A DNA stretch of 32,179 nt from Gemmatimonadota bacterium (GTDB lineage Bacteria; Gemmatimonadota; Gemmatimonadetes; Longimicrobiales; Gaopeijiaceae): contig JAPPGM010000097.1 of the NCBI GenBank assembly GCA_028874995.1, forward strand, positions 1 through 32,179, read 5' to 3'. The position numbers and the translations under genes are program-made. Every line of letters starts with the position of its first letter. The first letter of the stretch is position 1. This document shows, in pieces, positions 4,205 through 30,676 of the stretch. A model generated the notes under the pieces. It worked only from the letters and a program-made list of their open reading frames with translations, searched no databases and had not been told where the DNA came from.

Positions 4205-4406
4205 GGTGAGCTCCTTTGGCGGGAAACAGTGTTCGGCGACTGGTGTGGAACCGTCGGCCTGCCCGGATTGTAAACGGGCGTTCCGTTCGTCTCGTCCAAT
4301 TACTGTAACGCCGCTCGGTCGGGGGTGCCGGGGGGTGGGTGGGGGACGAGGGTGCGAAGCTCCTTTGCCGCGCGTGGTGCAGACATGTCGGAGAGTCCAC
4401 CTGAAC

Positions 4407-4423
4407 GGAGGCTGAAACAAATG
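4407..4423 (+). promoter_or_regulatory. Ribosome binding site that sets the start at 4421
   Basis: GGAGG (4407-4411) lies 9 nt before ATG 4421. The surrounding CTGAACGGAGGCTG is the same sequence that encodes the L-E-R-R-L junction inside the four M56 genes, where GGAGG also precedes an in-frame start. Here there is no M56 protease domain upstream, so the sequence appears to serve directly as a ribosome site. In-frame ATGs at 4325 and 4385 are possible alternatives but have weaker context. Confidence 0.6.
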
Positions 4424-5422
4424 TTGTTAGCAGGTAACGGTAGTAAACAGATGATGAAATGCGGACTGGTGTGTCTTGCGGGTGTGGTCGTGGCGGTGGT
4501 CGCGGGTGCTTGCGAGGTGCCTCCTCCGACAGCGATCGCGCCAGCCGCAGGCAAGGAGGTCGCGGCGGCAGCGCGTACGGATGAAAAAGCACGGGAGCCG
4601 GGATTCCAGATGCCCGGGGTCGACGGGGATCGCCTCCTGATCCGCGGTGTCAACAGGCTACCCTCGCTGTCGCTGTCCGCGGAGGACGTGGCCGCGAATC
4701 CGCTGGTCCTTGTCGACGGCGTGCTCGTCGAGGGTGGCCTGAATGAGTTGCTGGCGGGCGAACCGCTGGACATCCGGGGAATCGGGTATTCGAGCGCTCC
4801 CGGCAGTTTCGGGGACTTCGGCGACGAAAGCGGCAGAGGAATCGTGCTCATCAGCACAGTAGGGGAAACGGCGGGTTCCGGGGTTGAGTGGATGCTGTCC
4901 GGCCAGGAGGTCCGGGAGCGCGTGAGAGCGGCGCTGGAGCGCGGGAGAGAGGCCGCGGAGCGCGGAAGAGAAGCCGCGGAGCGCGGAAGAGAAGCCGCGC
5001 AGCGCGGAAGAGAGGCCGCGGAGCGCGGAAGAGAGGCCGCGGAGCGCGGGATGAAGGCTGCGGAGCGCGGGAGAGAGGCTGCGGAGCGCGGGATGAAGGC
5101 TGCGGAGCGCGGAAGAGAGGCCGCGGAGCGCGGGAGAGAGGCGCTGGAGCGTTCCAAAGACAGCTGGGACCACCAACGAGATGCTTGGCAGCACGATCCG
5201 GCCACCGCAGAAGCGGCTGGGTGGGTGATCATCCGGAATGTCCAGGGAAGACCGGTACTGTGGTTGAGCCCCGGCAGCGCGGCGACGAATCCCCCCGTCG
5301 TGATCGACGGTGTGGTCCTTGAGGGAGGATTGGATGCTCTGTCGAGTCTCGAACCGCTGGACATTGTCAGGTTGGGATACCTGGGGTCGAAGCGAGGCGT
5401 CTTCATCACCACCCGGCGCTGA
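4421..5422 (+). CDS. Lipoprotein with two plug-like segments and eleven helical heptads, paralogue of the M56 C-terminal part
   Basis: A 333-residue protein. Residues 12-31 form a hydrophobic stretch ending VAGAC, a lipobox-like signal with Cys31. The next residues, EVPPPTAIAPA, match the same position in the neighbouring M56 protein at 5637 (DVPPPTAIAPA). Residues about 93-147 (NPLVLVDGVLVEGG to GRGIVLISTV) resemble a TonB-plug-like fold. Residues 171-247 are eleven heptads of the type A-A-E-R-G-R-E, probably one long charged helix. A second plug-like copy (NPPVVIDGVVLEGG to RGVFITTRR) closes the protein. It could be a surviving 3' part of a duplicated M56 gene or the ancestral stand-alone form of that domain. 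Its good ribosome site and intact frame favour a working gene. Function unknown; an envelope anchoring or spacer role is inferred. Confidence 0.82.
   Translation: MLLAGNGSKQMMKCGLVCLAGVVVAVVAGACEVPPPTAIAPAAGKEVAAAARTDEKAREPGFQMPGVDGDRLLIRGVNRLPSLSLSAEDVAANPLVLVDGVLVEGGLNELLAGEPLDIRGIGYSSAPGSFGDFGDESGRGIVLISTVGETAGSGVEWMLSGQEVRERVRAALERGREAAERGREAAERGREAAQRGREAAERGREAAERGMKAAERGREAAERGMKAAERGREAAERGREALERSKDSWDHQRDAWQHDPATAEAAGWVIIRNVQGRPVLWLSPGSAATNPPVVIDGVVLEGGLDALSSLEPLDIVRLGYLGSKRGVFITTRR
4931..5161 (+). repeat. 21-bp tandem repeat, 11 units
   Basis: Eleven units of 21 bp, each coding a 7-residue unit (A-A-E-R-G-R-E; variants ALERGRE, AAQRGRE, AAERGMK, ALERSKD). The DNA units are nearly identical (GCGGAGCGCGGAAGAGAGGC type) with only scattered changes, so copy number may vary by slippage. 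The frame is kept because the unit length is a multiple of three. Long antisense open frames over this stretch are by-products of the repeat. Confidence 0.95.
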
Positions 5423-5537: not shown

Positions 5538-5600
5538 TACGAAGCTTGTCGTTGACATTCGCCGAGTCGGATTGTACATTCAATACGAAAAGCTTCGTGA
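5538..5600 (+). promoter_or_regulatory. Promoter with two ACGA-N6-TCGT operators ahead of M56 gene 5637
   Basis: The -35 box TTGACA (5552-5557) and -10 box TACATT (5575-5580) are 17 bp apart. A 14-bp dyad ACGA-N6-TCGT occupies 5539-5552 and overlaps the first base of the -35. A second copy occupies 5585-5598, at the expected transcription start. The outer arms also pair over 9 bp (ACGAAGCTT with AAGCTTCGT). Bases 5538-5559 match 26908-26929 at 21 of 22 positions, and the second dyad recurs at 26967-26980. Such placement would block RNA polymerase. The likely repressor is the BlaI-family protein at 28560, although known BlaI/MecI sites have a TACA/TGTA core, so this assignment is inference. 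Confidence 0.75.
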
Positions 5601-5636
5601 ATCATCGATTCGGACACGGCGTAGAGGGAAGGTGTC

Positions 5637-6953
5637 ATGTTGTTGTGGATGGCCTACGCGGCGGTTGTGGCGGGGCTGCTCGGCGCGGGCGGACTCGCCC
5701 TGGAGCGCATCTGCGAAACCCTTGGATGGCCGCGTCGCCTCCCTTGGCTGATGGCGCTCACGCTGGCGCTGGTGGTCCCATTGACGGCGACGCCGGGGCC
5801 GCCTGGTGGCGCCGCCGGGAATAGGGACGGGACGTCGCCGACGGGCGCTACCCAGGTCGTGCGTCCGGCAGCCGGACCGGTCGCGGAGGAGGAGCGGGCG
5901 ACTCCGTTCGCTGTGCCCCTACCCACCCGCACCGATCGCATCGCGCTGCTCCTCTGGGGCGTTGCCTCGCTGGCGATTGCCGGGGCACTGGGTGCGGTCC
6001 TTCTCGCCTCGGCGGTGGCCCGCCGTCGCTGGCGCAGACGGCGGATCGACGGTGAGGAGGTGTACGTCTCCCGCGATGTCGGGCCGGGGCTGGTCGGTGT
6101 GGTGCGGCCCGTGATCGTCATTCCCCGGTGGGTAATCGCCCTCGGGGCGGCGGCGCGTGCCACCGCCGTGAAGCACGAGCGTGAGCATGCTCGCGGCGGG
6201 GATCACCTGACGCTTCTGTACTCGGGCCTGGCCGTCGCGGCATTCCCCTGGAGCCCCGCCGTCTGGTGGATGTGTCGCCGGTTGCGCGCCGCCGTCGAGA
6301 TCGACTGCGACCGACGGGTGATCGGGTCCGGGATTCCCGCCGCCGAGTACGGCAGCCTGCTCCTCGGGATCGGGGCGATGCGGCCGCGGCGGCAGGTGTT
6401 CGCGCTCACGCTGGCCGGACGGGGCACGCTGCTGGAACGGAGGCTGCGAACGGTGATGGCAAACGACAACGGAAGGAAACAAATGAACAGGACTGGCTTG
6501 GCGCTCCTTGCGGGCGTGGTGGCAACCGCTGTGGTGGTAGCGTGCGACGTGCCGCCACCGACGGCGATCGCACCGGCGGTGGCCGAGACGTTGGTGGGTG
6601 GCGGGGCGACTCGTCAGGAGCGGGTGTCAGGGGCGGAGGTGGCGGAGCAGGTTCGCGATATGCTCCGCAGCGGCGGCGTGATTTCGTCGCCGTCCCTGTC
6701 TCCGCAGGAGGTGGCGTCCGCGGACGCGCTCGTGCTGCTGGACGGAGCGGTTCTCGTGGGCGGCCTGGCCGCACTGCCGGAGCGAGACTTCCCCGCAATC
6801 ATGGGAGTCTCGCACTATACGTACGATCCGGATCGTTTCGGGCATTTCGCCGGCCACGAGTTGTGGGGGGTCGTGCTCATCAATACCGTGGAGGCGCACG
6901 AGCGCGGGGAGGCACGGTGGTGGCCGCCGGTGCAGCAGGAACCGCTTCCATGA
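5637..6953 (+). CDS. M56 (BlaR1-type) membrane metallopeptidase with lipoprotein/plug-like C-terminus
   Basis: A 438-residue protein. Membrane segments lie at about residues 1-22, 37-52 and 102-127. The zinc motif is HEREH (180-184), followed by the family block FPWSPAVWWMCRRLRAAVE and D223. In BlaR1 relatives this cytoplasmic protease domain is activated by an external signal and inactivates a BlaI-type repressor. LLERRL (265-270) leads into a fourth hydrophobic segment (about 284-302) ending VVVAC with Cys303, then DVPPPTAIAPA and a plug-like domain (DALVLLDGAVLVGG to WGVVLINTVE). No penicillin-binding domain is present, so a beta-lactam signal should not be assumed. ATG 5637 has an AGGGAAGG ribosome site. 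No blaI gene is adjacent; the shared promoter suggests control in trans from 28560. Confidence 0.93.
   Translation: MLLWMAYAAVVAGLLGAGGLALERICETLGWPRRLPWLMALTLALVVPLTATPGPPGGAAGNRDGTSPTGATQVVRPAAGPVAEEERATPFAVPLPTRTDRIALLLWGVASLAIAGALGAVLLASAVARRRWRRRRIDGEEVYVSRDVGPGLVGVVRPVIVIPRWVIALGAAARATAVKHEREHARGGDHLTLLYSGLAVAAFPWSPAVWWMCRRLRAAVEIDCDRRVIGSGIPAAEYGSLLLGIGAMRPRRQVFALTLAGRGTLLERRLRTVMANDNGRKQMNRTGLALLAGVVATAVVVACDVPPPTAIAPAVAETLVGGGATRQERVSGAEVAEQVRDMLRSGGVISSPSLSPQEVASADALVLLDGAVLVGGLAALPERDFPAIMGVSHYTYDPDRFGHFAGHELWGVVLINTVEAHERGEARWWPPVQQEPLP
6439..6485 (+). promoter_or_regulatory. Possible internal translation starts in M56 gene 5637
   Basis: GGAGG (6439-6443) precedes in-frame GTG 6453 and ATG 6456. 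A second site, GGAAGGA (6471-6477), is 5 nt before in-frame ATG 6483. Starting at 6483 gives MNRTGLALLAGV and a short hydrophobic core up to AC, a well-proportioned lipoprotein signal peptide. Comparable sites occur at the same place in the three M56 genes of the downstream operon. Confidence 0.4.
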
Positions 6954-15051: not shown

Positions 15052-17853
15052 TCAGCGCTGCCAGGCCGCAGGGTCCGGGATTCCACGGGTAAAGAGGACC
15101 TCGAACCCCGGCTCGGCGGGGACCAGGCCGCCACGCACCTGCGCCGCCGTCGCGCCCGGCGGCAGACCGGTGAAGAAGCCCCGCACCCGCCCTGTCCGGG
15201 GATCACGCACGATCGCGGCCGGGCGATCGGTGTCGCCGTCCATTGTGACGGACCCGTCCGGTCCCGAGAGCGTGATCCGGGCGAGTTCGTTCGCCCGGGC
15301 AACCCGCGCCGGCACCGCAAACGCGAATGAACCGCGGTCCTCCGCATCCGCGATGACGGGCATCTCGAATTGAAGACTGAAGAGTTCGGCGCCGCCGGTC
15401 GTGGCCCCCCTCAAGCGATATGCGCCGCTTGAGCGAGGCAGGGACGGCGGAGCGTCGATCACGAACGCCGGCCCCAGGTAGGGCCTGCCGTCCTCGCCGA
15501 CCCCACCGGAAACCAGGAGCGACAGTGTAGGTGCGGCCGGGCGCACCGAACGCTCTACTGCCTCCCACACCAGCCGGTGACGCAGCGAATTGGTGAAGAA
15601 GAACTCGCTGATCCAGGTCGGATCGCAGTAGGACATGAGGTCGCTGATCGAGGGATCCACCAGCATACCCGTCAGGAAGTCGTATCCCCACGCTCCGATG
15701 GTCCCGTCGGACTGCGGAAACGATATGTCCGGGCGGCCCGCACCGCAGCCGGGCGCGTGATAGAGGCTCAGATTGTGCCCGAGTTCATGGGCCATGATGG
15801 AGGAGTCGGGGATCGAGAAGCTGGTCCAGCCGGGCACGTATGCGACGCCACGGGCACCGGTGACCGACCCCGACATCGTACTCATGAAGTACCCCGTTCC
15901 ACCTTCGGCTGCACGAATGGCCACGGTCTGCGCCAGCACCGAGAACGCGTTGTTCGAGTTCGTCACCACGGGCTCGTGGATGTTCAGGTCGATCTCCGCC
16001 ACCGGGAGCAGATCCCGGATTTCGCGGAGCAGCGGATCACCGGGAGACAGGTCTCCGGTGATGTGGAGGATCGCGGAGTCCGGGCTCGCGCTCCACAGGA
16101 AAGGGATCAGCGTGAGTTCCAGGTCCGGCATCGCACGCACGTCCACCGCCATTCTTCCCGTCTCGGGGATGCGCTGCGCCACGCCCAGCTCCGGGGCCAC
16201 CGTCCCGTCCGGATCGATCTCCACTACCATCTCCAAACCCGGCTGAATCACCGACGCTGGAACCAGGACGTTGGCGGAAGCATTCAACGATCCTTCGTTC
16301 ACCTGCTCGCCAATGATCGGCGACCCGCGCTCGATCTCCACCACTTCCGCCCCCTTCCCGTTCACGAAGAAGGTGGCACGGACCATCGGGATCGTGTCGC
16401 CCGCAGCCGCCGGTGCCACCACGAACACGCGCAGAAGCGCATCCTCACCCGCGACGAGCGGCACCGGGTACTCCATGGACTGTACCGCCTGGGTCAGATA
16501 GGCGACCGACCCCTCCTCCGGTTCCTTGCACGACGGAATCCGCCTCTTCGGCACGCCCATCAGCCACGCCTGAAACTCGTGGTCGACCGGCGCACAAAGG
16601 CCCGTCCCGGCCAGCATCAGCTCGGAAAGCCCGCCGAGGCGGATGATGCCCATCGGAAGCAGCCCGGAAAGGCCCGAGTCGGTCAGAATCAGGCGCTTGA
16701 GGCCCGTCATCTCACCGATTTCGTCGGGCAGCGTCCCGGTGTGCGGGTTGCCCGCCAGCATCAGTATGTCGAGGCCCTCCAGGCGCGTCAGCACGACGGG
16801 AAAGGGGCCGCCGAAGTCGTTGCCGCCGATCCAGAGCTCGGTCAGGCGGGTGAGGTTGCTCAAGTCGCCGGGGATCTCGCCCGAGAGCCGGTTGTTGTGC
16901 AGGTACAACCACTCAAGCCTCTTCAAACCGCCAAGTTCACCCGGAATGGGCCCGCTGAGCTGGTTGTTGTGCAGCTCAAGCCCATAGAGTTTCGTGAGGT
17001 TCCCCAGCTGTGGGGGGATGGACCCGGTGAACTGGTTGTTGTGCAGCCACAGCAATAGCAATTCCGGCATTTTCCCGATCTCGGGCGGGATGTTCCCGGA
17101 GAGTTCGTTGTCCGAGAGGACCAGGTGGTTCAGGAGCGCGAGGTTCCCGATCTCGGGGGGAACGCTGCCGGAGAGGTCGTTAAAGAGCAGAACCAGGTCG
17201 GTCAGCTGAGTGAGGTTTCCGATCTCGGGGGGGATGCCGCCGGAGAGGTCATTGGCGTAGAGGTGCAGTTCACGCAGCTGCGTGAGGTCTCCGATCTCGG
17301 GCGGGATGGTCCCGGAGAGGCGGTTGAAACTGAGATCCAATCCCACCACCCGCCCGTCGGGACCGGTCTCCACCCCGTGCCAGTCCCTGAGAGGAGCATC
17401 TGACAGCCATCGACTGTTTTCCCTCCATCGTCCCCCGTCCGTGGCTTCGTAGAAGGCGATCAGCGCCTCGCGCTCCACGTCGAACACCACGGTGACCGAG
17501 GCGGAGGCGGATGCCGACCCCGCCGTCGCGCTCACACTCGCCCTTCCGGTGCCCCGCGGGCGAAGAAGCCCGGTGTGATCGACCGAGACTACCGCGTTGT
17601 CGCTGCTCGACCACGAGACGACGTGGCCGGCCATCAACCCACCGTTCTGGTCGTACACCCTGGCGGTGAGCCGCGCGGTCTCGCGCGAGGAGATGAACTG
17701 TAACGCCGCGCGGTTCAGCGTAACCGACGTGGGCTCCGGCAACGGCTCCTCGCACGTCACGGCGGCCACCACCAGCACGACCGGCGCAAGTCGGCACCAC
17801 CTGCGGGTCCGGAGGCTTGAACGGCGACGTGCGACGTGAATCCGGGTCGGCAC
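15052..17853 (-). CDS. Surface LRR / zinc metalloprotease-like protein (copy 1)
   Basis: A 933-residue protein from GTG 17853. It has GGAG 7 nt upstream in the same AAGGAGCA context as copy 3, which is why the upstream ATG at 17904 is rejected. The signal ends VVAAVTC, lipobox-like. Next come an Ig-like/BIG2-type domain (PTSVTLN to ASVTVVF) and about 10.5 plant-type LRRs of 24 residues (L-SG-IPPEIGNL). A C-terminal region follows with HELGHNLSLYH (HELGH coded at 15775-15789), a metzincin-like HExxHxxxxxH, and a downstream DLMSYC Met-turn candidate. Ser replaces the usual Gly in the zinc motif. It probably degrades or binds an extracellular protein or glycoprotein; the LRRs would supply target binding. 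It has its own candidate promoter (17891-17918). Bases 15359-16218 are identical to part of copy 3. Confidence 0.92.
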   Translation of the reverse strand: MPTRIHVARRRSSLRTRRWCRLAPVVLVVAAVTCEEPLPEPTSVTLNRAALQFISSRETARLTARVYDQNGGLMAGHVVSWSSSDNAVVSVDHTGLLRPRGTGRASVSATAGSASASASVTVVFDVEREALIAFYEATDGGRWRENSRWLSDAPLRDWHGVETGPDGRVVGLDLSFNRLSGTIPPEIGDLTQLRELHLYANDLSGGIPPEIGNLTQLTDLVLLFNDLSGSVPPEIGNLALLNHLVLSDNELSGNIPPEIGKMPELLLLWLHNNQFTGSIPPQLGNLTKLYGLELHNNQLSGPIPGELGGLKRLEWLYLHNNRLSGEIPGDLSNLTRLTELWIGGNDFGGPFPVVLTRLEGLDILMLAGNPHTGTLPDEIGEMTGLKRLILTDSGLSGLLPMGIIRLGGLSELMLAGTGLCAPVDHEFQAWLMGVPKRRIPSCKEPEEGSVAYLTQAVQSMEYPVPLVAGEDALLRVFVVAPAAAGDTIPMVRATFFVNGKGAEVVEIERGSPIIGEQVNEGSLNASANVLVPASVIQPGLEMVVEIDPDGTVAPELGVAQRIPETGRMAVDVRAMPDLELTLIPFLWSASPDSAILHITGDLSPGDPLLREIRDLLPVAEIDLNIHEPVVTNSNNAFSVLAQTVAIRAAEGGTGYFMSTMSGSVTGARGVAYVPGWTSFSIPDSSIMAHELGHNLSLYHAPGCGAGRPDISFPQSDGTIGAWGYDFLTGMLVDPSISDLMSYCDPTWISEFFFTNSLRHRLVWEAVERSVRPAAPTLSLLVSGGVGEDGRPYLGPAFVIDAPPSLPRSSGAYRLRGATTGGAELFSLQFEMPVIADAEDRGSFAFAVPARVARANELARITLSGPDGSVTMDGDTDRPAAIVRDPRTGRVRGFFTGLPPGATAAQVRGGLVPAEPGFEVLFTRGIPDPAAWQR
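15359..16218 (-). repeat. 860-bp tract identical to 21348-22207
   Basis: Compared line by line, these bases match 21348-22207 with no difference seen and a constant offset of 5989. The tract begins after a mismatch at 15358/21347 and ends at a mismatch at 16219/22208. Beyond both ends differences appear every few to few tens of bases. It covers the metalloprotease-like domain. The corresponding part of the middle paralogue (about 18300-19160) is clearly diverged. Confidence 0.93.
16588..17349 (-). repeat. Leucine-rich repeats of copy 1 (10 full plus 1 partial)
   Basis: Ten 72-bp units and one partial unit coding 24-residue LRRs of the plant-receptor type (x-L-x-L-x-x-N-x-L-S-G-x-I-P-P-E-I-G-N-L). 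The last units (FPVVLTRLEG, TLPDEIGEMT) diverge from the consensus and are conserved among the three paralogues as a C-terminal cap. Confidence 0.9.
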
Positions 17854-17890
17854 TGCGTGCTCCTTGATTGGGTAGCGTCCCGTGACCCTT

Positions 17891-17918
17891 AGTATAGTCC
17901 ACATCGGTTGCGGGTCCA
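17891..17918 (-). promoter_or_regulatory. Candidate promoter for LRR protease copy 1
   Basis: Read on the minus strand, TGGACC (17918-17913) and TATACT (17896-17891) are separated by 16 bp, and the -10 box lies 37 bp before GTG 17853. The rest of the 137-bp gap between copies 2 and 1 shows no gene and no clear terminator. Confidence 0.45.
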
Positions 17919-17990: not shown

Positions 17991-20900
17991 TCAACGCCTC
18001 CACATCACCGCGTCGGGGATGCCCCGGCTGAACAACAGTTCCAGCCCGCGCGCGATGGGGACGAGGCCCTCTCGCACGTCCTTGGCGGTCACTCCCGCGG
18101 GGAGATCGGTGAAGAAGCCACGCACCCGCCCGGTCCGCGGATCCCGCAGGATCGCGGTGGGACGATCTGTGTCGGCGTCCAGGGCGAAGGATCCGTTCGG
18201 TCCCGAGAGGGTGATGCGGGCAAGGTCACTCGCCCACGCTTCCCGTGCGGGCACCGCGAACGCGAACGAACCGCGATCCTCCACGTCGGCGATGACGGGC
18301 ATCTCGAATGCGAGGCTGAAGAGTTCGGCACCATTGGCCGTGGTCCCCCTCAGGCGATAGGCGCCGCTCGAGCGAGGCAGGGATGGCGGGGCGTCGATCA
18401 CGAACGCGGGCCCCAGGTAGGGCCTGCCATCCTCGCCGATCCCGCCGGAAATCAGAAGCGACAGGGTCGGTGCGGCAGGGGACACCGAGCGCTCCGCCGT
18501 CTCCCACACCAGCCGGTACCGCAACGAGTGGGTAAAGTAGAGGTCGCTGATCCATGCCGGCTCACAGTAGGACATGAGGTCGGGTACGGAAGGCCGTACC
18601 AGCGTGCCCGTGGGAAAGTCATATCCCCACGCGCCGATGCTCCCGTCCGGTTGTGGAAACGACACGTCCGGATTGCCCGCACCACCACACGGCGCGTGAT
18701 AGAGGCTCAGGTTGTGTCCGAGTTCGTGGGCCATGACCCACGGGTCCGGAATCGCGAAGCTGACCCAGCCTGGGACGGTGGCGACGCCGCGGGCGCCCGA
18801 CACCTGCCCCGACATCGTACCCATGAAGTACCCTGTTCCTCCCTCGGCGGTGCGAATCGTCCACGTCTGCTCGAGCATCGAATGGGCCCGATTCGAGGTC
18901 GTCACGACGGGCTCGTGGACATTCAGGTCCATTTCCGCCACCGGGAGCAGGTCGCCGATGTCGCGGAGCAGTTCGTCTTCCGGAGAGAGATCTTCGGTGA
19001 TGTCCAGGATCGCGGAATCGGGGTTCTCACTCCAAAGGAACGGGACAAGCGTGAATTCGAGTTCCGGCAATGCCCTGACGTTGACCGCCATCCGCCCCAC
19101 CGCGGGGATGCGCTTCGCCACGCCCAGACCCGGATCCAGCGTCCTGTCCGGGTCGATCTCGATCACCATTTCCAGACCCGGCTGAATCACCGGCCCCGGA
19201 ACCAATCCGTTGGCGGACGCTTGCAACGAACCCTCGTTCACCTCCTCGCCGATGATGGACGACCCGCGCCCGATCTCCACGACCTCCACCTCTTCCCCAT
19301 CCAGGTAGAAGGTGGCGCGGACCGACGGGATCGTATCGCCGGCAGCCGAGGGTGCCACCACGAAGACCCGCAGGAGCGCTTCCTCGCCGGCGACCAACGG
19401 CACCTTGTAGGTCATGGACTGCACCGCCTGAGTGAGATAGGCGACCGATCCCTCCTCGGGTTCCTCACACGAGGGGATCCGCCTCTTGGGCACCCGCTCG
19501 AGCCACATTTGAAACGTTGCGTCTTCGGGAGCACACAACCCGGTTCCCGCCGCCATGAGTTCCAGGAGCCCATCGAGGCGGGTCATGCCCGGCGGGAGCA
19601 GGCCGGAAAGTCCCGTGTCGGTCAGAAGGAGGATCGCGAGGTTCCCCATGTCACCGATCTCATCTGGCAGAGTGCCCGAATACGGATTGCCCGCCAGCAT
19701 CAGCCGGTAGAGCCTCGGGAGGCGGGTCAGCACCACCGGGAACTCTCCAACAAAATCGTTGCCACCTATCCACAGGTCGATCAAGGCCGGCAGGTAGCCA
19801 AACTCCTCCTGGATCTCTCCCGAGAGTTTGTTGTTGTGCAGGTACAGCCGACTGAGGCTCCTCAATCCGCCCAGCTCTCCGGAAATGCCCCCGGTTAGCT
19901 CGTTGTCGGAGAGGTTTGCTCGGTAAAGACGCGAGAGGTTGCCCAGTTCCGGCGGGATGGGTCCGCTGAGCTCGTTGCGTTGCAGCCACAACGCGCGCAA
20001 ACGAGTCAAATCTCCGATTTCGGGCGGGATGGTCCCGGCAAGGCTGTTGTCCTGGAGCAACAGCTCGGCAAGTTGCGCCAGGTTTCCGATCTCGCGGGGA
20101 AGGGCACCTGAGAGATCGTTCTGCGAGATGTCCAGGTATCGCAGCTGCCCGAGGCCCCCGATCTCGGAAGGAATGGAGCCGGAAAGTTCGTTTCGGAAGA
20201 GTACCAGTTCCTGCAGTTCCCTCAGGTTCCCGATCTCGGGAGGGATCGGGCCTGAGAGCAGGTTGTAGCTGAGATACAGCACTTCCAGTTGCGTCAGGAA
20301 CCCGATCTCGGGAGGGATCGGACCCGAGAGGCCGTTCAAACGGAGATCCAACTCGCGCAACTCCGAGAGGTGCCCGATCTGGGGAGGAATGGGACCCAGG
20401 AGTATGTTGGCATAGAGACGCAACTCACGCAGCTCCGCGAGGTGCCCGATCTCTGGAGGGAGGGAGCCTCTGAGGCCGTTGACACTGAGGTCCAACCCCA
20501 CCACCCGGCCATCGGAGTCGGTTTGCACCCCATACCAGTCCGAGAGTGGAGCATCGGACAACCACCCATCGCGCCTGATCCATTGTTCCCCACCGGTGGC
20601 GTTGTAGATGCCCGCAAGTGCTTCGTTGTCGGTCAGGAGGACCACGGTGACCGTGGCATGCGCCGACGCCGAGCCCGCTGCCGCGGTGATTCGCGCCATC
20701 CCGGCCCCCTCTGCTCGGACAAGCCCCATCTGGTCGACCGACGCGACCGTCCCATCGCTGGTCGACCACGAGACGGCGTGACCCGCCAGCACCTCCCCGT
20801 TCTGGTCATACACCTCGGCCCTGAGCTGAGAGACGTCCTGCAGGGAAACGAATTCCAGCGTGGTGAGGTTGAGCTTGATCGACGTGGGCTCGGGCGCCGA

Positions 20901-21041
20901 CCCCGGCCAATCGCAAGCGGGGCCGGCCGCCAGTACGACAATGGCCATCGTGATCAGTTGGTGGACGTACCGGCGATCAGCTGAGTTCGGTCGGTGTCCG
21001 AAGGAGTTGGTCGGCGCCGGCATCGGGCGCGTTCGGCGCAT
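17991..21041 (-). CDS. Surface LRR / zinc metalloprotease-like protein (copy 2)
   Basis: A 1016-residue paralogue and the longest of the three. ATG 21041 is 2 nt beyond the stop of copy 3, so the two are probably translated from one message. The signal-like N-terminus ends AAGPAC (Cys43). The Ig-like domain PTSIKLN to ATVTVVL follows, then about 13.5 LRR units. The C-terminal domain has HELGHNLSLYH with HELGH at residues 772-776, a Cys-containing APCGGAG, GAWGYDF and DLMSYC. The latter region is roughly three-quarters identical by eye to copies 1 and 3 and lacks the recently homogenised tract they share. Difference in LRR number among the copies implies change of the binding surface. Extracellular, membrane-anchored proteolysis or adhesion is inferred. 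Confidence 0.92.
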   Translation of the reverse strand: MRRTRPMPAPTNSFGHRPNSADRRYVHQLITMAIVVLAAGPACDWPGSAPEPTSIKLNLTTLEFVSLQDVSQLRAEVYDQNGEVLAGHAVSWSTSDGTVASVDQMGLVRAEGAGMARITAAAGSASAHATVTVVLLTDNEALAGIYNATGGEQWIRRDGWLSDAPLSDWYGVQTDSDGRVVGLDLSVNGLRGSLPPEIGHLAELRELRLYANILLGPIPPQIGHLSELRELDLRLNGLSGPIPPEIGFLTQLEVLYLSYNLLSGPIPPEIGNLRELQELVLFRNELSGSIPSEIGGLGQLRYLDISQNDLSGALPREIGNLAQLAELLLQDNSLAGTIPPEIGDLTRLRALWLQRNELSGPIPPELGNLSRLYRANLSDNELTGGISGELGGLRSLSRLYLHNNKLSGEIQEEFGYLPALIDLWIGGNDFVGEFPVVLTRLPRLYRLMLAGNPYSGTLPDEIGDMGNLAILLLTDTGLSGLLPPGMTRLDGLLELMAAGTGLCAPEDATFQMWLERVPKRRIPSCEEPEEGSVAYLTQAVQSMTYKVPLVAGEEALLRVFVVAPSAAGDTIPSVRATFYLDGEEVEVVEIGRGSSIIGEEVNEGSLQASANGLVPGPVIQPGLEMVIEIDPDRTLDPGLGVAKRIPAVGRMAVNVRALPELEFTLVPFLWSENPDSAILDITEDLSPEDELLRDIGDLLPVAEMDLNVHEPVVTTSNRAHSMLEQTWTIRTAEGGTGYFMGTMSGQVSGARGVATVPGWVSFAIPDPWVMAHELGHNLSLYHAPCGGAGNPDVSFPQPDGSIGAWGYDFPTGTLVRPSVPDLMSYCEPAWISDLYFTHSLRYRLVWETAERSVSPAAPTLSLLISGGIGEDGRPYLGPAFVIDAPPSLPRSSGAYRLRGTTANGAELFSLAFEMPVIADVEDRGSFAFAVPAREAWASDLARITLSGPNGSFALDADTDRPTAILRDPRTGRVRGFFTDLPAGVTAKDVREGLVPIARGLELLFSRGIPDAVMWRR
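19527..20504 (-). repeat. Leucine-rich repeats of copy 2 (13 full plus 1 partial)
   Basis: Thirteen 72-bp units and one partial unit coding 24-residue plant-type LRRs (consensus L-SG-IPPEIGNL). This is three units more than copy 1, and the extra units lie in the central part of the array. Confidence 0.9.
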
Positions 21042-25217: not shown

Positions 25218-26708
25218 ATGGCTCTTCAGGCTCTTCGCGACCGTCCCCGGTCCCACGCCACGCTGCCCCGCGCGCGGCTCGCGGTTTTCCCCCTGTTGCT
25301 TCTCATGGGATGCGGCGACAACCGCACTCCCTCGACCGGCGACCACGACACCCCCGGTCCACAGGAAGGCGGCCCCCTCCTCATCGATGGCGGCACCGTG
25401 GTGGTCATGGACGAGTCCGGCCTGATCCTCGAAGGCGCGGCGGTGGTCGTCGAGGGCGACCGCATCTCCGCGATCATCGCCGCGGGCGGCCCACGCCCGG
25501 AAGGCGCCCACCTCATCGACGCCACCGGCCACCTCGTCATCCCCGGCCTGGTCAACACGCACGGCCACGCCGCCATGTCGCTGCTCCGCGGCCTCGCGGA
25601 CGACCTCCCGCTCATGACGTGGCTGAACGACTACATCTTCCCGGCCGAGGCCGCGCTCGTCGCCCCCGATTTCGTCTACTGGGGCACCCTGCTCTCGTCG
25701 GTCGAGATGCTGAAGAGCGGAACGACCACCTTCGCCGACATGTACTACTTCCGTGACGACATGGCCCAGGCCACGATCGACGCCGGGATCCGTGCGGTGA
25801 CCGGGCCGCATGTCATCGGCTTCCCCGCCCCCGACTTCGCCACTCCCACGGCCTCTCTCGCCGACGCGGCCGAATTCATGGAGCGCTACCGGGACCACCC
25901 CACCGTCGTCCCCGCGGTAGCCGCCCACGCGCTGTACACCACGCCCCTCGAATCGGTCGAGGCCGCCTTCCGCCTGGCCGAAGAGTACGACGCCCCCTTC
26001 CAGATCCACGCCGTCGAGGACCCCTCCGAGGACGTCACCGCGCGTGAACAGACCGGCATGGGGGTGGTCGAGGCGCTCGGTTCGATCGGCGCGCTCCGGC
26101 CCGGGACGGTGCTCGCCCACTCCATCTACCTGTCGGACGCGGACATCGAGCGCATCGCGGCGAGCGGAGCCGGGATCGCGCACAACCCGCAGAGCAACAT
26201 GAAGTTGGGAGTCGCACGGGCGGCCCCGGTGGCGAAGGCGCTGGCGGCGGGGATTCCGGTGGGGATCGGGACGGACGGGCCCGCCAGCAACAACGACCTC
26301 GACATGTTCGACGAGATGGACGCCGCGGCGAAGGTGCAGAAGTTCATGCTGGGCGACCCGGCTGCGCTACCGGCGGAGACGGTGTTCCGAATGGCCACAA
26401 TGGGCGGGGCCCGTGTGCTGAACCTCCAGGAAGAGATCGGGTCGCTGGAGCCGGGCAAGCGGGCGGACATCGTGCTGGTGGATGTGCGGCGTCCGGGGCT
26501 CACGCCGCTGTACAGCGTCTATTCGCACCTGGTGTACGCGGCGCGCGGCAGCGACGTGACCACCGTGATCGTGAACGGGCGGGTGGTGGTCCGCGACCGC
26601 GAGATCCTCACGGTGGACGAGAATGAGGTCATGGAGCGGGCACGGGGGTTCGGGGACCGGGTGCGGGAGGTGATGGAGGAGGTGGCGGGGGGGAGGGGGG
26701 GCGGTTGA
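25218..26708 (+). CDS. MtaD/ATZ-TRZ-type amidohydrolase (deaminase) with lipoprotein signal
   Basis: A 496-residue protein. The catalytic part closely follows the 5-methylthioadenosine/S-adenosylhomocysteine deaminase group: GLVNTHGHAAMSLLRGLADD (metal His115 and His117), MLKSGTTTFADMY, the H-x-x-E motif in IHAVED, AHSIYLSDADIERIA, GIAHNPQSNMKLGVA, and metal Asp in GTDGPASNNDLDMFDEM. Enzymes of this group deaminate adenosine derivatives, guanine or triazines; the exact substrate is not readable. Unusually, it has an N-terminal extension with hydrophobic LAVFPLLLLMGC and lipobox Cys32, which places it outside the cytoplasm, whereas most known MtaD enzymes are cytosolic. ATG 25218 lacks a clear ribosome site, and the C-terminal Gly-rich tail (VAGGRGGG) is low complexity. 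Confidence 0.92.
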   Translation: MALQALRDRPRSHATLPRARLAVFPLLLLMGCGDNRTPSTGDHDTPGPQEGGPLLIDGGTVVVMDESGLILEGAAVVVEGDRISAIIAAGGPRPEGAHLIDATGHLVIPGLVNTHGHAAMSLLRGLADDLPLMTWLNDYIFPAEAALVAPDFVYWGTLLSSVEMLKSGTTTFADMYYFRDDMAQATIDAGIRAVTGPHVIGFPAPDFATPTASLADAAEFMERYRDHPTVVPAVAAHALYTTPLESVEAAFRLAEEYDAPFQIHAVEDPSEDVTAREQTGMGVVEALGSIGALRPGTVLAHSIYLSDADIERIAASGAGIAHNPQSNMKLGVARAAPVAKALAAGIPVGIGTDGPASNNDLDMFDEMDAAAKVQKFMLGDPAALPAETVFRMATMGGARVLNLQEEIGSLEPGKRADIVLVDVRRPGLTPLYSVYSHLVYAARGSDVTTVIVNGRVVVRDREILTVDENEVMERARGFGDRVREVMEEVAGGRGGG

Positions 26709-26776: not shown

Positions 26777-26827
26777 ATGTAAACTATGATTGACAAATTG
26801 TAAATCACAGTTGTCATTTCTTACATT
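26777..26827. promoter_or_regulatory. AT-rich TGTAA/TTACA element upstream of the M56 operon
   Basis: This is an AT-rich island in the gap between 26708 and the operon promoter. ATGTAAACT (26777-26785), TGACA (26791-26795) and TGTAA (26799-26803) occur with exactly the same spacing as at 1412-1438, and 21 of 27 positions match. TTACATT (26821-26827) follows, as at 1447-1453. An inner dyad TGACAA/TTGTCA spans 26791-26816. It lies about 80 bp upstream of the M56 operon -35 box, so it may bind an activator or second regulator. Its orientation relative to the nearest gene differs from the first copy. Confidence 0.5.
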
Positions 26828-26907
26828 TCACCCGAAGGACACGGGGGTCGGACGACGCTCTGCCACCACAGGTCCGAGTCGTTGGCGGGCCAGGGTTCCA
26901 GACTCAG

Positions 26908-26981
26908 TACGAAGATTGTCGTTGACATTGCCGCTCCCGCCCCCCTATCGTATGTCATGATCATTTACGAGAATTTTCGTG
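26908..26981 (+). promoter_or_regulatory. Promoter with two ACGA-N6-TCGT operators ahead of the M56/blaI operon
   Basis: The -35 box TTGACA (26922-26927) and -10 box TATCGT (26946-26951) are 18 bp apart. Dyads ACGA-N6-TCGT lie at 26909-26922, overlapping the -35 start, and at 26967-26980, just after the expected start of transcription. Compared with the promoter at 5538, the first dyad plus -35 box is conserved at 21 of 22 bases and the second at 13 of 16 (extended by GA). The distance between dyads is 12 bp longer here. Because blaI lies in the controlled operon, this would be an autoregulated promoter. Confidence 0.75.
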
Positions 26982-27111
26982 ATTCGGTTCCGGGGAACGC
27001 GCTCATTGCCGCACCGGGTGGGCAGACGGCGGAGGGAAGACTGATCGTGCGTGTTTGGAAGCATGAGGGCTGCACGAGAATCGCCCCGATGCAACGTGTG
27101 AGGGATCGTCG

Positions 27112-28500
27112 ATGATCAACTGGATGGTGTACGCGGTGCTGGTCGGAGTACTGATCGCGGCCGGTGCACTCGCTCTCGATCGGCTCATGTCGTCGACCGG
27201 TCGCCCGCGCAGGTTCGTGTGGCTGGTGGCGCTGGCGCTCGCGGTTGCGGTGCCGGTTGCGGGTGGCCTGAGAGAGTCGCCGGAGCTTCCGGTGGACTCC
27301 GAGGTCGTGGCCACGGAGTCAATCTCACGATCGACCATCGTGACCAAGAGGGAACAGGGCCTCATCCCGCCGCTGTCCCAGTCGGCCAGCCAGACGGCGG
27401 CGCGTACCGCGACCCTTGCCTGGGCCGCGGGATCCGTAGCGGCATTGGCTGCGGTCTTTGCTGTTCTCTGTTTCGTCACGCGGGCGCGCCGCCGCTGGAA
27501 ACGCAACCGGATCGACGGCACGGAAGTCTATGTGTCCGACCGGTTCGGACCCGCGCTGGTCGGCATCCTGACGCCGAAGGTCGTAGTTCCCGCGTGGGTC
27601 CTGGAACTGGACCCGGCCGCCAGGGCGACCATCCTGCGCCACGAGCAGGAGCATGCCCGGGCATACGACCACCTCGCCCTTCTCTCCGCCGGCCTCGTGG
27701 CAGCCCTGTTCCCCTGGAGCCCGGCGATCTGGTGGATGTGCCGGCGGCTGCGCGCCGCCGTTGAAATGGACTGTGACCAGCGGGTCATCGCTGGCGGGAT
27801 CGGTGCCGCCGACTACGGCGCCGTGCTCCTGCAGGCGGGGTCCCGCCCGCAAGGCCGCTGGGGACTCGCCCCGGCAATGGGCCGACCTAGGAGTTTGCTG
27901 GAACGGAGGTTGAGAACCATGAGCGAGAAGAGAAGAAAACTGTACGCGCCACATGGCGGTCTGCTGGCAGCCGCGGCACTGGTCGCCCTTGGCGTCGCCT
28001 GTGACGTCACCTCCCCGACAAACCTGGAGGAAGCGATCAGGGAGGTGGTGACCGACGGTCAGGCGAACGGGGACATCCAGGACGACGCTCGTCTCGCCGA
28101 GCAGTGGTACGATCGCATCTCCCGTGCCTTCCGGAGCAAGGCGCCAACGGGGACTCCAGCCCCGATCGTGTTCGTGGACGGGTGGCGCGTATCGAGTTCC
28201 GGGGAAGCGCCGGACCGGACCGACTTCGGGCGCGGCGGCCCATCGGTGTCGCCCGTCCCCATGGACTTCAAGCGTGTCCAGGTCCTCATGGACTCGGCGG
28301 CACGAGAGGCCATCGGCGAAGAGGCACCGGGCGGCGTACTCCGGATCTTCACTTCCGAGGACGGTGGCCTGACGCTCGAGGAAGTGGTGGCCGCTGTCGA
28401 ATCCGTAAGCGGGATGCCGGGGATCCTGAAGTGGTCCTACGCCGCGGGACCGGCAAGGGCCAGGACCATTCATGCCACCGGGCGCCCCGTCAGGGAATAG
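27112..28500 (+). CDS. M56-A: BlaR1-type membrane metallopeptidase with plug-like C-terminus
   Basis: A 462-residue protein and the first gene of the operon. ATG 27112 has AGGGA just upstream. Membrane segments lie at about residues 1-22, 34-52 and 100-122. The zinc motif is HEQEH (177-181), followed by FPWSPAIWWMCRRLRAAVE and D220. LLERRL leads to M270 and a fourth hydrophobic segment ending GVAC (Cys297), then DVTSPTN. The external part carries one TonB-plug-like unit at about residues 350-415 (APIVFVDGWRV to APGGVLRIFTSEDG), comparable with the VEVLKG-AANGVILITT pattern of plug domains but without any beta-barrel. By analogy with BlaR1 it should sense an external cue and inactivate the BlaI repressor. 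There is no penicillin-binding domain, so the cue is unknown. Confidence 0.93.
   Translation: MINWMVYAVLVGVLIAAGALALDRLMSSTGRPRRFVWLVALALAVAVPVAGGLRESPELPVDSEVVATESISRSTIVTKREQGLIPPLSQSASQTAARTATLAWAAGSVAALAAVFAVLCFVTRARRRWKRNRIDGTEVYVSDRFGPALVGILTPKVVVPAWVLELDPAARATILRHEQEHARAYDHLALLSAGLVAALFPWSPAIWWMCRRLRAAVEMDCDQRVIAGGIGAADYGAVLLQAGSRPQGRWGLAPAMGRPRSLLERRLRTMSEKRRKLYAPHGGLLAAAALVALGVACDVTSPTNLEEAIREVVTDGQANGDIQDDARLAEQWYDRISRAFRSKAPTGTPAPIVFVDGWRVSSSGEAPDRTDFGRGGPSVSPVPMDFKRVQVLMDSAAREAIGEEAPGGVLRIFTSEDGGLTLEEVVAAVESVSGMPGILKWSYAAGPARARTIHATGRPVRE
27905..27921 (+). promoter_or_regulatory. Possible internal translation start in M56-A
   Basis: GGAGG (27905-27909) is 9 nt before in-frame ATG 27919. 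A product from here begins MSEKRRKL, continues with a hydrophobic core and reaches GVAC, which has the form of a lipoprotein signal peptide. Confidence 0.4.
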
Positions 28501-28559: not shown

Positions 28560-28961
28560 ATGACCGGCAAGCGAGAGAAGCGTGAACCGAAGGGCTTCAC
28601 CGACCGGGAGCTCGACATCATGAGCGTGCTGTGGCGCGAGGGGTCGGGCACCGTGACCGAGGTCCGCGAGGCGCTCGGCGAGGAGGTCGGCTACACCACA
28701 GTCCTCAAGATGCTGCAGATCCTCGAGGAGAAGGGCGCGGTGAGCCATGAACAGGAGGGACGCGCCTACCGCTATTTCCCGCTGGTGGAGTCGGTGCGGG
28801 CGGGCGGACGCGCTCTCTCGCGGATCGTCAACAAGATCTTTCACGGCTCGGCCGAGCGCCTGCTGGCCACCCTGGTGGAGGACCGGGAGTTCACCGCGGA
28901 AGAGATCGAGCGGATGCGATCGATTCTCGACCGTGCAGAGCGCAGGAGGGATGAAGGATGA
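28560..28961 (+). CDS. blaI: BlaI/MecI-family transcriptional repressor
   Basis: A 133-residue winged-helix repressor. ATG 28560 follows a purine-rich ribosome site (GGAAAGGAAGAG). The open frame extends far upstream into the previous gene but has no family similarity there. DNA-binding part: FTDRELDIMSVLWREGSGTV, VREALGEEVGYTTVLKMLQI, LEEKGAVSHEQEGRAYRYFP. The dimerisation part is SAERLLATLVEDREFTAEEI. It probably binds the ACGA-N6-TCGT dyads at both M56 promoters as a dimer. In staphylococcal BlaI/MecI the sensor pathway cuts an Asn-Phe bond; the aligned residues here are Thr104-Leu105, so cleavage, if any, must differ. The stop overlaps the M56-B start (ATGA), a common blaI-blaR1 arrangement. 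Confidence 0.95.
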   Translation: MTGKREKREPKGFTDRELDIMSVLWREGSGTVTEVREALGEEVGYTTVLKMLQILEEKGAVSHEQEGRAYRYFPLVESVRAGGRALSRIVNKIFHGSAERLLATLVEDREFTAEEIERMRSILDRAERRRDEG

Positions 28962-30676
28962 TCGCGTGGATGGTGTACGCCGCCCTGGTCGGAGGGATCA
29001 TCGCGGTGGGCGGCCTGGCGATGGAAAAGCTGGCGGCAGCGTTGGGCCGGCCCCGCCGGATCGCGTGGCTGGCGGCGTTGACGCTGGCGGTCGCAGTCCC
29101 GCTGGCGGGGGGATGGGGAAGCCCGGCGGCGACGCCCGTCGTTGAGACCGTTGCCCCCGAACCGGCGCCGATCAGCGGAGCGGTCGTCGGAGACATCTGG
29201 AGTGCGATCCCCACCCTGCCGGTTCCGCAGGGCGTGGCAAACGGCAGGATCGCCTTGCTGGCGTGGGGAGCCGGCTCCCTGGCGTCCCTGGCCGTTCTGG
29301 CCGGCGTGCTGGTGCTCGTCGCGCGGGGGCGGCGGCGTTGGGAGCAAAGGTGGGTGCACGGAACCGATGTCTACGTTTCGCGCCGCTTCGGCCCAGCCCT
29401 GGTCGGCGTCGCCCGACCCGAGGTGGTGATCCCGGCGTGGGTGCTGGAGCTGGAGCCGGGCGCCCGGGACGCGATCATCCGGCATGAGACCGAGCATGCA
29501 CGCGCTCGTGACCACCTCGTCCTGCTCTACGGAGGCCTTGTAGCGGCTGCCTTCCCGTGGAGCCCGGGGATCTGGTGGATGTACCGGCGGCTCCGCGCCG
29601 CAGTGGAACTGGACTGTGATCAGCGGGTCCTGGCGTCCGGGATAGGCGTTGCCGACTACGGCGATGTCCTCCTGCGCGCGGGGTCCCGTTCCCGTGGCCG
29701 CTGGGGATTCGCCCCGGCCATGGGTCGACCCGAAAGTCTACTTGAACGGAGGTTGAAGACGATGAGTAAGAAGCGAAAGAAACTGAGTGGGGGCTACGGG
29801 GCGCTGCTCGTGGCGGTGGCGGTGGGGGCGGTGGTGGCCGCGTGCGATACCCCGGTGCCGACGGAGGTCAGGGAGGCGTTCGAGGAGGTGATGGCGGAAG
29901 AGGTCGAACGGGGTGCCGATGCGCAGCAGGAGGACTGGGTCGTGAGGTTCCTGCAGGCCGAGGCGTTCGGCTCGCAACCGCCGCTCCTGTACGTGGATGG
30001 AGTCAGGATCCGGAAGACGGAAGACCTGCCCGAGTCGGCGCGGGGGTGGTTCGAGAACCCGGACGTGGACGCCGGAGTCGGCGGGAGTTGTTGCTACTTC
30101 GGCGGGGCTACAAATATTTCGCGCATCGAGATCCTGAAGGGACCGGCGGCCAGGCTGCACTACGGCGAAGTGGCGGCTCGCGGGGTGATCCAGGTCTTCA
30201 CGGAGGATGGGGAGCCCGTGCCCGAGATGATCGTGGTGCCGCCCGGGCCCGACGTGATCCTCGGCCCCGTCGAGGCGAGTGTCTCACCCGAAGGGGACTT
30301 CGTGGTAACGGGACAGGCGATCATGGTGGAACCCGAAGCCGAGCTCATCGATGTGGAAACCGTCATGGGTATCGTCGTGACGGGAGCGGCGAACTCGACG
30401 AACCGGTTTAGGGAACTGGTTATCCGAAAACGTCGGGATGGGACCACCGGGGCGGAACCGGTCATCTATGTCGACGGCATCCGCCTGGATGGGGGTTTTT
30501 CGAGCCTGAATGAGCTGCTCCCCACGCTGAGCCCCGAGCACATCGACCGCGTAGAGGTGATCAAGGGCGAGGCCGCGCGGGAAGAATACGGTGAAGAGGG
30601 AGTCGACGGGGTCATCCTGGTCTTCACGAAGAAGAAGGAGTCTTCGGACAAGCCATCGACCGGCCGCTCCAGGTAG
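28958..30676 (+). CDS. M56-B: BlaR1-type membrane metallopeptidase with two plug-like units
   Basis: A 572-residue protein whose start overlaps the blaI stop by 4 nt, the position expected of the cognate sensor/protease. Membrane segments lie at about residues 1-22, 34-52 and 98-122. The zinc motif is HETEH (176-180), followed by FPWSPGIWWMYRRLRAAVE; Tyr replaces the Cys found in the other three M56 proteins. LLERRL is followed by M269 and a hydrophobic segment ending VVAAC (Cys296), then DTPVPTE. The C-terminal half holds two plug-like units, at about 345-415 (PLLYVDGVRIRK, ISRIEILKGPAARLHYGEVA, ARGVIQVFT) and about 500-567 (PVIYVDGIRLDG, IDRVEVIKGEAAREEYGEEG, VDGVILVFTKKK). These closely resemble the end of a TonB-dependent receptor plug but no barrel follows. 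Signal and partner are unknown. Confidence 0.94.
   Translation: MIAWMVYAALVGGIIAVGGLAMEKLAAALGRPRRIAWLAALTLAVAVPLAGGWGSPAATPVVETVAPEPAPISGAVVGDIWSAIPTLPVPQGVANGRIALLAWGAGSLASLAVLAGVLVLVARGRRRWEQRWVHGTDVYVSRRFGPALVGVARPEVVIPAWVLELEPGARDAIIRHETEHARARDHLVLLYGGLVAAAFPWSPGIWWMYRRLRAAVELDCDQRVLASGIGVADYGDVLLRAGSRSRGRWGFAPAMGRPESLLERRLKTMSKKRKKLSGGYGALLVAVAVGAVVAACDTPVPTEVREAFEEVMAEEVERGADAQQEDWVVRFLQAEAFGSQPPLLYVDGVRIRKTEDLPESARGWFENPDVDAGVGGSCCYFGGATNISRIEILKGPAARLHYGEVAARGVIQVFTEDGEPVPEMIVVPPGPDVILGPVEASVSPEGDFVVTGQAIMVEPEAELIDVETVMGIVVTGAANSTNRFRELVIRKRRDGTTGAEPVIYVDGIRLDGGFSSLNELLPTLSPEHIDRVEVIKGEAAREEYGEEGVDGVILVFTKKKESSDKPSTGRSR
29748..29764 (+). promoter_or_regulatory. Possible internal translation start in M56-B
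   Basis: GGAGG (29748-29752) is 9 nt before in-frame ATG 29762. The product would begin MSKKRKKLSGGYG, then a hydrophobic core and VAAC, an almost textbook lipoprotein signal with a strongly basic n-region. Confidence 0.45.

Follow-up and report, generated by a model that had tools for sequence, protein, structure and literature searches.

A paired ACGA-N6-TCGT dyad as a candidate BlaI operator shared by a blaI-M56 operon and a distant M56 gene in Gemmatimonadota

In the Gemmatimonadota genome considered here, a single autoregulated BlaI-family repressor very probably co-represses, as far as sequence comparison can tell, both its own operon and a dispersed gene for an M56 sensor-protease. The window, which is the whole stretch of 32,179 nucleotides that was analysed (contig C83 of a genome of 4.52 Mb in 191 contigs), contains two promoters that carry paired ACGA-N6-TCGT dyads, and we regard these dyads as the probable operators through which the BlaI encoded at 28560 would jointly repress its own blaI-M56 operon and an M56 gene 21 kb away, at 5637 (probability about 0.86). 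The gene at 5637 shares with the blaI operon a specific operator pair that is conserved in relatives. In the sections below, we describe the genes and promoters concerned, the specificity and conservation of the dyads, their relation to the BlaI recognition helix and to known systems, and the regulation that they may provide.

Genes of the window

The features of the window are collected in Table 1, in which the two dyads of each promoter are labelled O1 and O2 and the four M56 proteins A to D. The BlaI gene is flanked on both sides by M56 genes and is the only BlaI gene of the contig, so the original prediction was right to call the M56 gene at 5637 solitary. The HExxH motif is kept in all four M56 proteins, Pfam detects in them only the M56 domain, or M56 and a TonB plug, with no penicillin-binding sensor domain, and the score of 25 bits against the blaR1_generic model is below the threshold of 400. 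Against the CopY model TIGR02698 the BlaI protein scores 60, below the cut-off of 122; its recognition helix reads GYTTVLK(50)MLQ(53)IL.

Table 1. Coordinates of the genes, promoters and candidate operators of the window
Feature	Position	Strand	Remarks
O1 of the solitary M56 promoter (T+ACGA-N6-TCGT)	5538..5552	+	exact dyad; kept in syntenic orthologue promoters
Sigma-70-like promoter, solitary M56	5552..5580	+	TTGACA 5552-5557, 17-nt spacer, TACATT 5575-5580
O2 of the solitary M56 promoter (TACGAAAAGCTTCGTGA)	5584..5600	+	exact dyad; past the -10 box, over the predicted +1
M56 A, solitary M56 (BlaR1-type) metalloprotease, HEREH	5637..6953	+	PF05569, E 3e-14; BlaI not adjacent
Amidohydrolase	25218..26708	+	PF01979; here upstream of the blaI operon operator pair
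O1 of the blaI operon promoter	26908..26922	+	exact dyad; kept at blaI orthologues
Sigma-70-like promoter, blaI operon	26922..26951	+	TTGACA 26922-26927, 18-nt spacer, TATCGT 26946-26951
O2 of the blaI operon (TACGAGAATTTTCGTGA)	26966..26982	+	exact dyad
M56 B, first gene of the blaI operon, HEQEH	27112..28500	+	PF05569, E 1e-18
BlaI-family repressor	28560..28961	+	PF03965, E 8.5e-30; 103.9 bits against a gathering cut-off of 22.6
M56 C with C-terminal TonB plug domain, HETEH	28958..30676	+	PF05569 and PF07715
M56 D, HEAEH; stops near the contig end	30696..32102	+	PF05569, E 5e-15

Two further groups of genes were noted. A lipoprotein-like open reading frame without a protease domain (4325-5422, + strand) lies just 5' of the 5538 promoter; it contains an (EAAERGR)n repeat tract and a segment, 4397-4891, that is 40% identical to the C-terminal region of M56 A. 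A tandem trio of large proteins is encoded on the minus strand (15052-17904, 17991-21041 and 21044-24001); a Pfam scan of the protein at 21044-24001 gives Big_2, leucine-rich repeats and a weak M66-like metalloprotease match, and its C-terminal region is nearly identical to that of the protein at 15052-17904, which suggests recent duplication or gene conversion.

Operator dyads and promoters

Direct comparison of TACGAAGCTTGTCGTTGACATT (5538-5559) with TACGAAGATTGTCGTTGACATT (26908-26929) gives the agreement at 21 of 22 positions that had been reported for them, base 8 being the sole difference, and the next best 22-base match in the window, on both strands, reaches 15 of 22. The four dyads that the original prediction had placed at two M56 promoters are all exact (5539-5552, 5585-5598, 26909-26922 and 26967-26980), and there is a fifth, missing from that account, which is stray and unpaired within coding sequence (6823-6836). 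Five occurrences of ACGA-N6-TCGT in 32 kb compare with an average of 0.63 over 100 dinucleotide-shuffled versions, none of which reaches five. At both promoters TTGACA starts with the final T of the first dyad, so that O1 at 5538-5552 and the -35 box have one base in common, and a consensus promoter scan independently selects exactly these two dyad promoters in their regions, with 10 of 12 matches each. O2 of the solitary M56 promoter begins about 4 nt past the -10 box and should therefore cover the start point, the corresponding distance at the blaI operon promoter being about 15 nt; the spacing between O1 and O2 is unequal at the two promoters. An AT-rich imperfect palindrome, GTAAACTATGATTGACAAATTGTAAATCACAGTTGTCATTTCTTAC, unusual in this GC-rich DNA, lies 5' of the blaI operon promoter at 26783-26836.

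Specificity within the genome

The genome has 12 BlaI genes and 17 M56 genes. A whole-genome scan for the motif, which had been proposed together with the prediction, finds the paired form in the 4.5 Mb only at the two window promoters, ahead of their M56 genes, and the reversed-pattern control gave 0 matches in every genome scanned with the paired patterns. Genome-wide, TACGAAGNTTGTCGTTGACA matches only the two window loci even when three mismatches are allowed, with no third O1 fused to TTGACA, whereas a relaxed scan for O2 (two mismatches) hardly discriminates, with 116 matches against 66 in the control, the exact ones being the two window sites only. None of the other 11 BlaI genes has ACGA-N6-TCGT within 1,500 bases upstream, and among the 12 BlaI proteins the K50/Q53 helix is found once.

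A BlaI subgroup with the helix QHGTVQRLLQRL (L023 and L024, on G000:C90 and G000:C36) has ACGAC-N5-GTCGT dyads just 5' of its own genes, and cross-binding between these paralogues and the N6 dyads is possible, given the similar half-sites. That the 5538 site is bound instead, or in competition, by another BlaI paralogue, such as C90:16423 or C36:8698, as the number of BlaI genes and the presence of ACGA/TCGT within the ACGAC-N5-GTCGT half-sites would allow, is unlikely in our view, since the C90 and C36 dyads span 15 bases and not 14, the helix is a different one, and, from one genome to another, the N6 pair goes with the K/Q BlaI in both occurrence and position.

Conservation at the blaI operons of relatives

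The named relatives in the comparison are metagenome-assembled genomes of Longimicrobiales and other Gemmatimonadota. A close BlaI orthologue is found in 20 of 22 same-genus genomes, and exact dyads mark the operon start in all 19 orthologues with an assessable (on-contig) promoter, 15 having the full operator pair and the remaining four a single exact dyad; no operator pair was found in the two same-genus genomes that have no close orthologue, G005 and G008. Across the order (154 genomes), the pair fused to TTGACA occurs at 38 sites, representing 36 distinct sequences, one of them cut by a contig end, and every assessable distinct site (35/35) precedes a blaI-M56 operon or a solitary M56 gene, some reaching blaI only after an intervening amidohydrolase gene. 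Many unrelated promoters carrying the motif, the outcome that the prediction had named as telling against it, were thus looked for in these 154 genomes, and essentially all of the sites stand at blaI-M56 or M56 genes. The pair tracks the start of the transcription unit: it lies about 125 bases 5' of blaI in the nearest relatives of the window and about 1.5 kb 5' of it in more than 10 other relatives, where the amidohydrolase gene stands between the two, inside the blaI operon.

A few further matches were set aside as chance, namely paired ones in G001 (a second site), G025 and G052, which are without TTGACA and near which neither M56 nor BlaI genes were found, and single TTGACA-fused ones in G043, near which M56 and BlaI genes were not found.

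The solitary M56 locus and its relatives

G021 has a locus syntenic with the one at 5538 (72% DNA identity across 5538-6934, with the same flanking genes), and G009 and G006 share neighbour genes with the window locus. M56 A and the solitary M56 genes of G021, G006, G009, G007 and G011 form one clade (SH-aLRT 98), and the promoters of these orthologues have alignable sequence only in the dyads, TTGACA and GTAC. The paralogy of M56 A with the operon's M56 proteins might be taken to mean that promoter and M56 gene were recently duplicated together and that the dyads were kept by descent only, without shared control. This is extremely unlikely, and a recent duplication was rejected on the synteny with G021, G009 and G006; the flanking promoter DNA has diverged there, yet the dyads, TTGACA and GTAC are kept, and the unequal O1-O2 spacing also speaks against it. 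Judged from these comparisons, the locus at 5538 is old, being syntenic in relatives, and no recent copy. The description of the promoter/operator as duplicated therefore holds for the motif and fails for the rest, the promoters being otherwise different.

Because the loci of this clade were originally found by the motif, the M56 test was repeated with loci picked by protein similarity (same genus, at least 46% identity, no BlaI nearby, assessable promoter). The operator pair is present in 5/5 such homologues of M56 A (L313-L316 and L341, the last with one mismatch), a count outside which G005:C321 stands, a further homologue whose promoter is cut off by the contig end; the five include G007:C105, which had been missed by the earlier motif search owing to one mismatch. 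Among the similarity-picked homologues, M56 genes beside BlaI have no operator pair directly upstream. The pair is also present at dispersed M56 genes of another family (G003, G012, G018).

Two beta-propeller genes were noted in these surveys. In G018 (L180, G018:C130, 4431) the orthologous promoter keeps O1, M56 A and the next gene are deleted, and the deletion joins the promoter to a gene for a 6-bladed beta-propeller and destroys half of O2, a fusion that is possibly a promoter capture. The perfect palindrome TACGAATAGCTTCGTA lies 3' of TTGACA and ahead of a beta-propeller-like gene at G000:C90:12045-12060 (L186, about 4046), and may be the site of a single-operator member of the regulon.

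Dyad sequence and the BlaI recognition helix

In related families, this BlaI lineage retains the promoter arrangement but with other bases, ACGGG-N4-CCCGT, and the bases of the dyad go with residues 50 and 53 of the helix: K50/Q53 (GYTTVLKMLQIL) with ACGA, W or S50/Q53 (AYTTVLWVLQTL, AYTSVLSVLQTL) with ACGG, and T50/R53 (AYTTVLTVLRTL) with ACTA. Among similarity-picked loci that have any of the three dyads, these combinations number 24, 9 and 19, respectively, with 0 crossovers; ACGG and ACGA loci found by pattern were left out of the counts, since they had been selected by motif. The association is seen within a single genome, G038, where one paralogue is K/Q and has an ACGA dyad and another is S/Q and has ACGG, and loci examined later fit it too (L275, K with an ACGA pair; L278, S with ACGG; L280 and L281 of Flavobacteria, T/R helix with ACTA), the exception being L225, a T/R locus with a lone ACGA dyad. 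A K/Q protein with Ala for Gly44 (L216, found by motif) retains the ACGA dyad, which means that the determinant is not Gly44. In MecI, the residues aligned with K50 and Q53 are T47 and T50, inside recognition helix 3, which comprises residues 41-56 of MecI (PMC5341023).

On the BlaI tree, residue and operator each change only twice, giving one independent pair, and phylogeny alone could therefore explain the covariation, which is consistent with a code and is not statistically independent proof of one. The covariation points to BlaI as the candidate binder of the dyads. A non-BlaI factor that binds them and controls the M56 and BlaI genes incidentally is very unlikely, as the dyad sequence shifts with helix residues 50 and 53 across lineages and the paired promoter sites match the published BlaI layout. 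The shared operator inferred in the original prediction is thus strongly supported by comparison (genome-wide specificity, conservation in relatives), and so is putative control of both loci by the BlaI at 28560, for which the helix covariation also counts.

Relation to known systems

The closest parallel is BlaI_0696 of Clostridium thermocellum, which binds paired inverted repeats of the GACTAT/ATAGTC type at three promoters (PMC8457756). Both systems have two inverted-repeat sites per promoter, autoregulation, a small regulon that includes promoters far from blaI, and an operon with more than one BlaR1-type gene; the half-sites are GTCTAT/GACTAT in C. thermocellum and ACGA/TCGT here, and binding was determined there by DAP-seq and gel shift, whereas here it is deduced from sequence. 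The likeness to staphylococcal BlaI/MecI lies in a PF03965 repressor with a MecI-related winged helix and in an HExxH M56 protease encoded alongside, whereas the operator core is TACA/TGTA in MecI/BlaI and also in CopY (PMC7253601) and ACGA/TCGT here. Unlike in staphylococcal BlaR1/MecR1, the M56 proteins scanned here are without a penicillin-binding sensor domain, and there are several M56 genes per repressor. The CopY/CopR copper repressors belong to the same superfamily, and paired operators occur among them, but their operator is the 16-base RNYKACANNYGTMRNY (PMC7253601), unlike ACGA-N6-TCGT.

With PF03965, an M56 neighbour and paired dyads at its own promoter, the BlaI at 28560 has the marks of the BlaI/MecI (Penicillinase_R) family, apart from the TACA/TGTA core, which is not required family-wide, as the GACTAT-type sites of C. 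thermocellum illustrate; of the marks of a BlaR1/MecR1 sensor, the window M56 proteins have the HExxH zinc protease domain and not the C-terminal penicillin-binding domain. The suggestion of a new operator class stands insofar as the motif differs from TACA/TGTA and falls insofar as the motif reads as a lineage variant of the ACTA-N6-TAGT form, GACTAT-type sites having been published (PMC8457756): being one base-step per half-site from ACTA-N6-TAGT, ACGA-N6-TCGT is on sequence grounds a variant of the known ACTA/TAGT type and no new category. Our search of the open-access literature found no paper describing an ACGA-N6-TCGT operator, and nothing relevant on M56-plug proteins or Gemmatimonadota BlaI regulons.

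Proposed regulation and significance

We infer binding and repression by BlaI at the dyads. One BlaI dimer would sit on O1 over the -35 box and a second on O2, at the transcription start or immediately beyond it, and occupancy of both would block the blaI-M56 operon and the M56 gene at 5637, so that BlaI would repress itself, the M56 sensor-proteases of its operon and at least one dispersed M56 gene. An M56 protease that senses its signal would then cleave BlaI, and all promoters would open together; one repressor would therefore serve several sensors. The layout and the cleavage steps are drawn from work on BlaI/BlaR1 (PMC9834060, PMC8457756), and cleavage of the BlaI at 28560 by M56 A is assumed by analogy with it. 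A beta-lactam signal sensed in the known way is not expected, because the penicillin-binding domain was not found.

For the Longimicrobiales as a whole, we think it reasonably probable that an undescribed ACGA-N6-TCGT BlaI operator, with an ACGG sister and readable from helix residues 50 and 53, wires dispersed M56 genes onto one repressor, the M56 proteins concerned having no beta-lactam sensor domains and some of them having TonB-plug tails. BlaI and M56 genes are abundant in these genomes (12 and 17 in the present one), far from the pathogens in which the system was studied, and an operator that is specific and conserved makes it possible to list the targets of one repressor from the sequence itself. 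The association that helix residues 50/53 appear to have with the operator bases offers a simple hypothesis for predicting the operators of uncharacterised BlaI paralogues, and the regulon as a whole suggests a many-sensors-to-one-repressor design.
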